This document shows, in pieces, positions 29,185-32,047 of a stretch of 64,000 bases of DNA. Within the stretch, counting starts at the first letter, position 1; the number at the start of each line of letters is the position of its first letter. A program made the position numbers and the translations under genes. Location of the stretch: NCBI RefSeq assembly GCF_000739615.1, contig NZ_BATP01000032.1, positions 62,001 through 126,000 of the forward strand. Direction: 5' to 3'. The notes under the pieces are model-generated. The model had not been told where the DNA came from. It worked only from the letters and a program-made list of their open reading frames with translations, and did not search any database. Source of the DNA: Haloferula sp. BvORR071 (GTDB lineage Bacteria; Verrucomicrobiota; Verrucomicrobiia; Verrucomicrobiales; Akkermansiaceae).

Positions 29185-31572
29185 CTACTCCCCCAACTCC
29201 ATCAGCCCCTTCAACACCCGCGCCGCCACCGGACCCGCGACCGTCGTGCCAAAGAAGGGCTCTTGCTCCTTCTTCCCGCCTTCGAGTCGCACCGCCACCA
29301 CATACCGCGGTGCTTCCGCCGGTGCGTAGGCCGTGAAGCTCGCCACGAGTCTACCACTCACATATTCTCCTTTCTCCACCAGAAGGCTGGTCCCGGAGAC
29401 TCCAGCAACCGCTAGATCCGGAAGCTTCGCCCGCGCACGGGACCCCGAACCACCGCCGCTGCTATCGTAGGGCCCATTGACGCTATCGCTCAGAGCTTGC
29501 CGGATCAGCGCAAGCTCCTCTCGGTCCACCCCGCGCTCTCCCACTGGAACCGCTTCGTGAACCTGCTCTCCTACGACAAACACCGGCTGGCGGATGCTCC
29601 CACTGGCCACCGTCGAGAGCAACGCGGCGCGATCGAGAACGGAGATCTGAATCGCATACCCATAGGAGGCGCGGCTCAGCTCGACAAGGCTTGGCTCTTT
29701 AGAGGGATTGAGCGGATACCACCTGGCCGCGGGGGCCTGCCACATCGAGCCCGCGGCCAGCGGCAGATTGAAGTCGTCCCAGATCCGGCTGAACTTCTCA
29801 TGGCCCATCTCCATCGCGAGCTGGGCACAATAAACATTCGAAGACCTCATCAACGCGGTGCGAAGCCCGATCTCCCCATGAATCGGATGGTCATCCTTCA
29901 CGATGATCCCGCCGCTCTTGAAGGCCCCGTCGTGACCGGAATACTTGCGACCCGTAAGATCATTTGTGGCTGCCCCCAGAGCCAAAACCACCTTCCCAAA
30001 CGACCCGGGCTCATCCGGCGACAAGGCGCGGTTCCGCAGCGGCTCGCGTTCATCGTTCTGCCACGCCTGCATCTGCTCCTCCGTCACCCCATCCGCATAG
30101 GCATTCGGATCGATCGCGGGCCAGGATGCCATCGCCACGACCTCGCCCTTGCGCGGATCCATCACCACGATCGAGCCCTTTCGCTCAACCGCAGCCAATT
30201 CATTCCAAGCCAGCCGTTGGGCGCGCAGATCCACGGTGGATTGCACCGGCTTGCCTTCCTGAAGAAGCGGGCTTGCTTCCAGGCCGGACTTTTCGACCGG
30301 CACCATTCCGCCATCCTTGTCAGGATGGACCCAGCCACTCAGGTGACCGACTGCCGCACCATCGGGATACCAGCGCAACGGCGGATTCGCCCGCATGGCT
30401 TCGGGCATCTTCTCAGGATCCGAAGTGGCGATGATCTTACCACGCCGGTCCACAATATCCGGCCGCTTCTCTTGCTTGGCAACGGACAGGGGAGGGGATT
30501 GAGCCTCCGCCGCACGCATCACCTCAGGAGCCGCAAAACCGAGAATCGCCAGCACCACCGTGGCCGCCGCCGCTGCCACCGCCATGAACCGCTCCGCAAA
30601 GCGCCGGAATCGTGCCGGTGCCTCGCGCCGTGCAAGCAGGAGATGGATCCGTCCGCCGATCTGCGAGCGCCGCGCCATCGCCAGGCCCGGAAAGCAACGC
30701 GCCTCGCTCACAGTCTCCAGCAAGTGCCCCGCATAGTCCGCAGCTGGCACTCCCGCTGCCACCACCGCTTCATCCGCCGCACGTTCCTGAGCGATCACGA
30801 TCCGCGATTGCACCCACCACGCCGCCGGATGAAACCACAGCAATGCCCTAACTCTACGTCCCAACCACCGCCCTATCAAATCCCGGCGGCGAATGTGATG
30901 GAATTCATGGCGGAGCACCGAGTGCAGCCGCTCTTCCGGCCAATCTATGGCCGACTCGGGCAGCAGGACCACCGGCCGAAAAGCCGAAGCGACTCCTGGC
31001 GAGCTGATATCCGATGAAAGCCGCAGAGGTACGAAGTCCGCCGTACTTCCCGCGATCTCCTGCCAGTGCGCGAACATCGCTGCCGGAGCGCGTCTGCCTT
31101 TCAAGCGCCGGGTGACACACCACCCGAAGAAAGAGGGCAGCAGGCTAAGGAGCCCGCCTCCAATCCACAAACCCGCCAAGATCTGGCGCGGCGACAGATC
31201 GGGAATCATGATCGATGACGAGGCGGTAGCTTTGACCGGAACCGGCGTCGCTTGAGATGGCCCTTCATCGCCTTCGCCGATGGGTTCATCGACGGGGACA
31301 GCTTCAAGGGGAGATCTCGTCGCTAGTGCAGGCAGTGGAAAGTATGCAGCTCCAATCCTCTCCGCCGGTGGCAAAACTTTCCACGACAGCGGCAACAACC
31401 CCGAGAAAAAGGCCATTGGCAGCAACAAGGCCAAGCCGGTCCACAGCCGCGCGGCGAGGTCGCGTTGCCGCACACAGGCGATGAAGGCTCCGCCGAGGAG
31501 AGCGATGAGCAGTGTCTTCACACAGCCCATGGCGAACCACGAGCTCCACGACAGATCGAGCGGCAGCTTCAT
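29185..31572 (-). CDS. BlaR1-like M56 metalloprotease fused to a penicillin-binding (FtsI/PBP2-type) domain
   Basis: The 795-residue protein has membrane segments at about 15-33, 44-66, 131-150 and 331-350. The M56 site H222-E-F-H-H226 and ERAADEA (from E263) lie on the cytosolic loop, as in BlaR1/MecR1. After the fourth helix comes a class B PBP region: VDRRGKIIATS (374-384), STVDLRAQ, GSIVVMDPRKGEVVAMAS, EPGSFGK with S524 and K527 (SxxK), RSSNV with SSN 577-579 (SxN), and AVAGVSGTS. The last replaces the KTG motif with V725-S-G. BlaR1 instead uses a class D beta-lactamase-like sensor. It is downstream of blaI with a 4-nt overlap, so it is probably an antibiotic-sensing protease for the repressor; that role is inferred. 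Confidence 0.85.
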   Translation of the reverse strand: MKLPLDLSWSSWFAMGCVKTLLIALLGGAFIACVRQRDLAARLWTGLALLLPMAFFSGLLPLSWKVLPPAERIGAAYFPLPALATRSPLEAVPVDEPIGEGDEGPSQATPVPVKATASSSIMIPDLSPRQILAGLWIGGGLLSLLPSFFGWCVTRRLKGRRAPAAMFAHWQEIAGSTADFVPLRLSSDISSPGVASAFRPVVLLPESAIDWPEERLHSVLRHEFHHIRRRDLIGRWLGRRVRALLWFHPAAWWVQSRIVIAQERAADEAVVAAGVPAADYAGHLLETVSEARCFPGLAMARRSQIGGRIHLLLARREAPARFRRFAERFMAVAAAAATVVLAILGFAAPEVMRAAEAQSPPLSVAKQEKRPDIVDRRGKIIATSDPEKMPEAMRANPPLRWYPDGAAVGHLSGWVHPDKDGGMVPVEKSGLEASPLLQEGKPVQSTVDLRAQRLAWNELAAVERKGSIVVMDPRKGEVVAMASWPAIDPNAYADGVTEEQMQAWQNDEREPLRNRALSPDEPGSFGKVVLALGAATNDLTGRKYSGHDGAFKSGGIIVKDDHPIHGEIGLRTALMRSSNVYCAQLAMEMGHEKFSRIWDDFNLPLAAGSMWQAPAARWYPLNPSKEPSLVELSRASYGYAIQISVLDRAALLSTVASGSIRQPVFVVGEQVHEAVPVGERGVDREELALIRQALSDSVNGPYDSSGGGSGSRARAKLPDLAVAGVSGTSLLVEKGEYVSGRLVASFTAYAPAEAPRYVVAVRLEGGKKEQEPFFGTTVAGPVAARVLKGLMELGE

Positions 31573-31985
31573 GGCTTCTCTCCTCCTTTTGCTTGGCGCT
31601 TGGCTTCGCGGATCACCGCTTCCAACTCCGCGATCTCCGCCGCATCTGGCGCGGCCCCGCTGCCCGTGAAGCGCGCCTGCAACGCCTGCTTCAGCGAACC
31701 ATCGAAGAACACCCGCAGCACCTGCTGCAGCGCGCTCTGCCCGGCCACCGCCGGATCGGTCGCCGGCTTGTAGAAATACTCCCGCCCCTCCTTGCGCCGT
31801 GTCACCCGGCCCTTGCCTTCCAGGATCGTTAGCATCGTTCGCACCCCGTTCGGGCTCAGATCCGCCGGCATCTTCTCGGTGACCCCACTCACCGTGGCTT
31901 CGCCCAGGGCGAAGAGAATTTCCATGATCTCCGTCTCCCGCCGCGAGAGCCCGGACAAAGGTTCAGGTGTCTTCTTTCGTGCCAT
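31569..31985 (-). CDS. BlaI/MecI-family repressor
   Basis: The 138-residue protein has the winged-helix N-terminus of this family (LSRRETEIMEILFALG and PNGVRTMLTILEGKGRVTR) and a helical dimerisation tail. BlaI repressors bind palindromes as dimers and are cleaved when the partner M56 sensor is activated. It overlaps the sensor gene by ATGA, so translation is coupled. A palindrome of the MecI type lies 45-62 nt upstream. There is no beta-lactamase gene in the window, so the regulated target may be the operon itself or distant. Confidence 0.92.
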   Translation of the reverse strand: MARKKTPEPLSGLSRRETEIMEILFALGEATVSGVTEKMPADLSPNGVRTMLTILEGKGRVTRRKEGREYFYKPATDPAVAGQSALQQVLRVFFDGSLKQALQARFTGSGAAPDAAEIAELEAVIREAKRQAKGGEKP

Positions 31986-32029: not shown

Positions 32030-32047
32030 AAACTAAGTTTTTAGTTT
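32030..32047. promoter_or_regulatory. candidate BlaI operator
   Basis: AAACTAA-GTTT-TTAGTTT is a perfect inverted repeat with ACTA-N6-TAGT spacing, the core geometry of MecI/BlaI operators. It is 45 nt upstream of the BlaI start. Confidence 0.65.

Follow-up and report, generated by a model that had tools for sequence, protein, structure and literature searches.

A gene in the 64,000-nucleotide stretch of DNA analysed here (the window) encodes a BlaR1-like protein in which the M56 metalloprotease is joined to a class B penicillin-binding protein (PBP) domain. Across the family to which it belongs, the protease has been kept and the active site of the PBP domain has been lost repeatedly, suggesting that these proteins probably sense by binding a ligand and not by reacting with penicillin.

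The fusion protein and its sensor

The fusion is read from an open reading frame on the minus strand, and its domain order is an M56 metalloprotease, a predicted last transmembrane (TM) helix and a class B PBP domain. The features of the locus are the following, in window coordinates and with the residue numbers of the fusion protein.

29185..31572, minus strand: M56-class B PBP fusion protein, 795 aa (ORF with Pfam, NCBIfam and PDB matches)
31192..31401, minus strand: predicted periplasmic loop EL1, residues 58-127, between TM2 and TM3 (predicted helices, low confidence)
30694..31191, minus strand: M56 peptidase region, residues 128-293 (PF05569, E 2e-21)
30895..30909, minus strand: HEFHH zinc motif, residues 222-226 (alignment with BlaR1 8exp/8exs; found in 25/25 Verrucomicrobiales fusions)
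30784-30786, minus strand: E263, predicted third zinc ligand (alignment with BlaR1)
30187..30477, minus strand: shortened class B PBP pedestal/linker, residues 366-462 (RxxIxDRxG, YP, G413 and E432 invariant or nearly so; PBP_dimer match in relatives)
29212..30177, minus strand: transpeptidase domain, residues 466-787 (PF00905, E 4e-35; Foldseek matches to PBP3/PBP2)
29992..30003, minus strand: SxxK motif SFGK, residues 524-527 (sequence and alignment)
29836..29844, minus strand: SxN motif SSN, residues 577-579 (sequence and alignment)
29392..29400, minus strand: VSG at the KTG position, residues 725-727 (alignment)
31569..31985, minus strand: BlaI/MecI-type repressor, 138 aa (PF03965, E 4e-21; PDB MecI/BlaI matches; 4-nt overlap with the fusion)
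32031..32046, no strand: operator-like perfect dyad AACTAA-N4-TTAGTT upstream of blaI (0 expected in shuffles; conserved before blaI in four relatives)

The zinc residues HEFHH and E263 align with the HEYAH site of BlaR1 (8exp/8exs); the E-value is weak at 1.6, and the motifs agree. BlaR1 has four TM helices and both termini outside; here, helices are predicted at residues 8-35, 37-56, 128-156 and 320-358, and the charges agree with the positive-inside rule, in a model of low pLDDT at its N-terminal end.

The class of the sensor cannot be read from the pairing of PF05569 with PF00905, since the PF00905 family takes in class D enzymes and BlaR1 sensors too. The pairing was therefore set aside as proof of class B, and the class was decided with NCBIfam. 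The best NCBIfam family for the protein is PBP2/MrdA (residues 438-791, 6e-43), with other class B PBPs next. The generic BlaR1 model (blaR1_generic) covers residues 132-273 only, which is the protease part, and no class D model in the NCBIfam search matched at E<=1. Among PDB sequences, gonococcal PBP2 and FtsI match best, and Foldseek leads from the AlphaFold2 model (mean pLDDT 63.8, with 70-90 in the transpeptidase core) to class B PBPs. The protein also keeps the N-terminal region of class B PBPs (RPDIVDRRG 370-378, RWYP 400-403 and GLE 430-432), a region absent from class D domains. This pedestal remnant is placed by alignment, as PF03717 is not reached in the window protein and is matched in relatives. 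The periplasmic sensor is a class B PBP, nearest to PBP2/MrdA, and not a class D domain. An earlier, sequence-only reading of this DNA had described an M56 protease joined to a class B PBP, motifs at S524FGK527 and S577SN579, V725SG727 in place of KTG and a BlaI gene overlapping by 4 nt, and all of this is borne out.

Relatives of the fusion

A contig scan with the single protein gave no relative, but a genome search and an alignment-based scan recovered 26, comprising 24 from Verrucomicrobiales and two from Myxococcota/Deltaproteobacteria metagenome-assembled genomes (MAGs). The Verrucomicrobiales relatives are full-length fusions with 66% to <30% identity, found in the family and order searched. 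One belongs to Luteolibacter pohnpeiensis KCTC 22041 and others to Verrucomicrobia MAGs; together with the window protein they make up the 25 Verrucomicrobiales proteins counted below. The two outside this order come from a Labilithrix MAG (L117:3-1721 (+)) and a Deltaproteobacteria MAG (L144:4152-6518 (+)), and each combines M56 with an FtsI-like PBP whose motifs are intact. The distribution is patchy, with fusions in 10 of the 195 genomes searched in the family. A phylum-wide search of 388 genomes, at a strict cut-off that weaker members would escape, gave no fusion beyond the family already known. All members have long open frames with no stops. A further locus, L069:1450-3852 (+), holds the PBP part behind a start that resembles the family's last TM helix and has no in-frame M56; it looks like either a split gene or an assembly frameshift.

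On a tree of the PBP domains, the Verrucomicrobiales fusions group with PBP2-like enzymes and the Myxococcota/Deltaproteobacteria fusions with FtsI-like enzymes. A single origin for all fusions is rejected (AU test, p=0.004), and with these two tree positions it follows that class B PBPs gave rise to the BlaR1-like arrangement on at least two occasions. The proposal that the architecture was built convergently is upheld, the source being a class B PBP in place of a class D domain. A single Verrucomicrobiales clade of fusions is not rejected (AU p=0.084). One clade for the subset with RRER-type BlaI is rejected (p=0.013), this being a subset named after the data were seen.

C-terminal extensions, most without a Pfam match, are found in the relatives of one family. 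For example, the sister proteins L064:1-3888 (-) and L065:1-3861 (-) consist of M56, a degenerate PBP2 and, at the C-terminal end, a domain of MreC, the PBP2 activator (E about 1e-31), which is confined to these two relatives. MreC has been reported to bind the pedestal of PBP2 and open it (PMC10257715). Another fusion, L055:562-3969 (-), ends in an FGE-sulfatase-type (formylglycine-generating enzyme-like) domain. In the window's own genome, mreC is a gene by itself with a PBP gene some 1.6 kb from it, and PF00905 is matched eight times outside the fusion; given this mreC and other PBP genes that score better, the fusion is an extra. The same genome carries two tandem M56 proteins (L001 and L002, C32:146281-149387), which are almost the same in their N-terminal halves and have diverged in their C-terminal domains, and three more M56 proteins (L003, L004 and L005) with yet other C-terminal domains or none.

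Conservation of the protease and loss of the PBP active site

The zinc residues H222, E223, H226 and E263 are intact in all 25 Verrucomicrobiales fusions. By alignment, the acylating serine S524 is found in 15/25 and K527 in 10/25, so that a full SxxK motif is kept in ten proteins and lost in 15; S577 and N579 are each found in 16/25 and the KTG lysine in 11/25. All three motifs are together in only two of the 25 (L066 and L067), and also in L117 and L144 outside the order. Non-fused class B PBPs of related genomes were aligned as a control, and each motif residue is present in 8/8 of them; a pattern check found all three motifs in ten non-fused PBPs, a set that overlaps the eight controls. 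The KTG position reads VSG in the window protein and LPG in its closest relative, and the state of SxxK changes at least four times on the tree. Since the acylating serine, the SxxK lysine and KTG are not kept family-wide, acylation by beta-lactams cannot be the shared mechanism, and the earlier suggestion of stable acylation favoured by the altered KTG is not supported.

The rest of the PBP domain is under constraint. The pedestal-derived residues R370, D375, R376, P403, G413 and E432 are invariant in the fusions. When the window protein is compared with the relative closest to it, the transpeptidase region has a dN of about 0.30 against a dS of about 1.8, which is near saturation, and dN is 0.12 in M56, where dS is >1 and likewise near saturation. 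In every region dN is lower than dS, including the fast EL1 loop, which is the least conserved. With dN well below dS, the PBP domain is under purifying selection and is maintained, although in most members catalysis is not what it is kept for.

The BlaI partner and an operator-like site

A blaI-type gene lies upstream of the fusion in 25/25 loci with readable upstream DNA. The dyads before it are AT-rich and specific to each clade: AACTAA-N4-TTAGTT in the window's clade, two copies of CGTTAA-N4-TTAACG in a second clade and TTCGCTA-N6-TAGCGAA in a third. In the 7.8 Mb searched for the window's dyad, the site before blaI is the sole exact match. Across 17 genomes, exact dyad copies sit before blaI, with one further exact copy in genome G125, and copies elsewhere (<=1 mismatch) are at or below the count of the reversed control pattern, in a search that divergent sites would escape. 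As there is no excess elsewhere in these 17 genomes, the blaI-fusion operon is the only predicted target, and the predicted regulon would be that operon itself. No canonical TACA/TGTA operators of the BlaI type occur upstream of blaI in the window, and the dyad search, with up to 1 mismatch, found no beta-lactamase or mecA-type target with a shared operator. As to a cleavage site in BlaI, the repressors of the Luteolibacter clade have Arg-Phe in the C-terminal part, at a place where other clades have Leu. This Arg-Phe possibly corresponds to a Phe that hardly varies among known BlaI proteins (PMC9834060).

Possible functions of the fusion

The explanation favoured here, which has about an even chance of being right, is that the protein is a pseudo-PBP2 sensor on a BlaR1-type protease, which responds non-covalently to cell-wall precursors or elongation partners and brings about the cleavage of BlaI. 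The sensor would be a shortened, partly inactivated PBP2 that takes the place of the class D beta-lactamase domain. Candidate ligands would be a peptidoglycan precursor or stem peptide; alternatively, the PBP2 pedestal may be recognised by a partner from the elongation machinery, such as MreC or RodA. If the protein works as BlaR1 does (PMC9834060), an altered sensor would signal through the last TM helix to the zinc protease in the cytoplasm, and the protease would cleave the co-encoded BlaI and thereby derepress the blaI-fusion operon. There is a precedent for BlaI systems responding to a signal from peptidoglycan, because a muropeptide fragment binds BlaI/MecI directly (PMC3305447). There are points against the non-covalent reading. 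The window protein has both SxxK and SxN and may therefore bind beta-lactams, with some residual acylation, and L066, L067, L117 and L144, with all their motifs, may bind beta-lactams. The MreC domain is limited to two sister proteins. In addition, with its predicted operator at its own promoter only, the favoured model leaves the output unexplained. A narrower and less likely version would have the pseudo-PBP2, in places together with MreC, mimic the elongation complex, read the Rod machinery or its substrate non-covalently and cleave BlaI in a closed, self-regulating loop.

One alternative, also raised in the sequence-only reading, is a true beta-lactam receptor like BlaR1, in which acylation of S524 would switch on the protease and lead to BlaI cleavage. 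The intact SxxK and SxN of the window protein, the domain order and BlaI partner shared with BlaR1, and the four relatives with all three motifs are in line with it, and a PBP as a beta-lactam sensor has a precedent in PbpP (PMC8092216). However, KTG is replaced in the window protein and in its closest relative, SxxK has been lost in 15 Verrucomicrobiales fusions and the protease in none, and the operator-like site stands before no second gene in the 17 genomes. The receptor is an unlikely explanation, and the sensing of a cell-wall or partner signal would fit better. L117 and L144 are more promising as true class B receptors for beta-lactams.

Another alternative, no more likely than the first but a serious rival, is that the PBP domain is the output, either as an inducible alternative PBP2 or as a non-catalytic modulator of the elongation complex, with sensor and effector in one chain. 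The fusion would then be the one predicted product of an operon that alone carries the operator-like site in the 17 genomes, and the MreC domains of L064 and L065 agree with such a role. So does L070:238-3126 (-) from G258, a relative of L067, which has BlaI upstream and a PBP with SxxK, SxN and KTG kept, and from which the M56 domain is absent in frame between the TM segments. Yet most members, the window protein included, lack a complete transpeptidase site, which would leave a structural role at best, and the protease is kept in 25/25. Finally, a decaying fusion without present function might account for the degenerate PBP motifs of many members and the patchy distribution, but it is highly improbable, as conservation speaks against it: the frames are open throughout, dN is below dS even in EL1, and the zinc site, pedestal residues and BlaI linkage are invariant.

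Comparison with known systems and significance

The fusion shares with BlaR1/MecR1 and BlaI/MecI of S. aureus and B. licheniformis (PMC9834060) an M56 zinc protease between (here predicted) TM helices, a C-terminal periplasmic sensor of the penicillin-recognising fold and a BlaI-type repressor gene that overlaps or is adjacent. It differs in that its sensor is a PBP2-like class B domain with a pedestal remnant instead of a class D domain, in its replaced KTG and an active site that is not conserved among the fusions, and in that no beta-lactamase or mecA-type target was found. With PBP2 (MrdA), the class B elongation transpeptidase, it shares the fold, the pedestal/linker motifs, the closest NCBIfam model and the tree position; unlike PBP2, it is joined to M56, has a shortened pedestal and, in most members, degenerate motifs, and is extra to the genome's PBPs. 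PbpP, the beta-lactam sensor for SigP in Bacillus thuringiensis, is likewise a PBP that acts as a sensor and causes a regulator to be proteolysed, but it is likely not itself the protease, it acts through an anti-sigma factor and its response needs beta-lactam binding (PMC8092216). The BlaR homologs of Oxalobacteraceae (PMC9045261) also join M56 to a penicillin-recognising domain outside Firmicutes; their active site is of class D, whereas that of the present fusions is of class B. No published description of the M56-class B PBP architecture was found in the open-access literature, subscription papers lying outside the scope of the search. The fusion can be considered a variant of the BlaR1/M56 kind, to which the Oxalobacteraceae class D and M56 proteins and PbpP are the nearest published systems.

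BlaR1 and MecR1 provide the textbook example of how a beta-lactam leads to resistance. A parallel family whose sensor is derived from PBP2 and mostly inactivated suggests a more general role for the M56/BlaI module, the reading of cell-wall state without acylation. Such a system would offer a genetic handle on how cell-wall elongation is monitored in the Verrucomicrobia, a little-studied phylum, and its natural series of variants would allow binding to be separated from acylation in receptors of the BlaR1 type.
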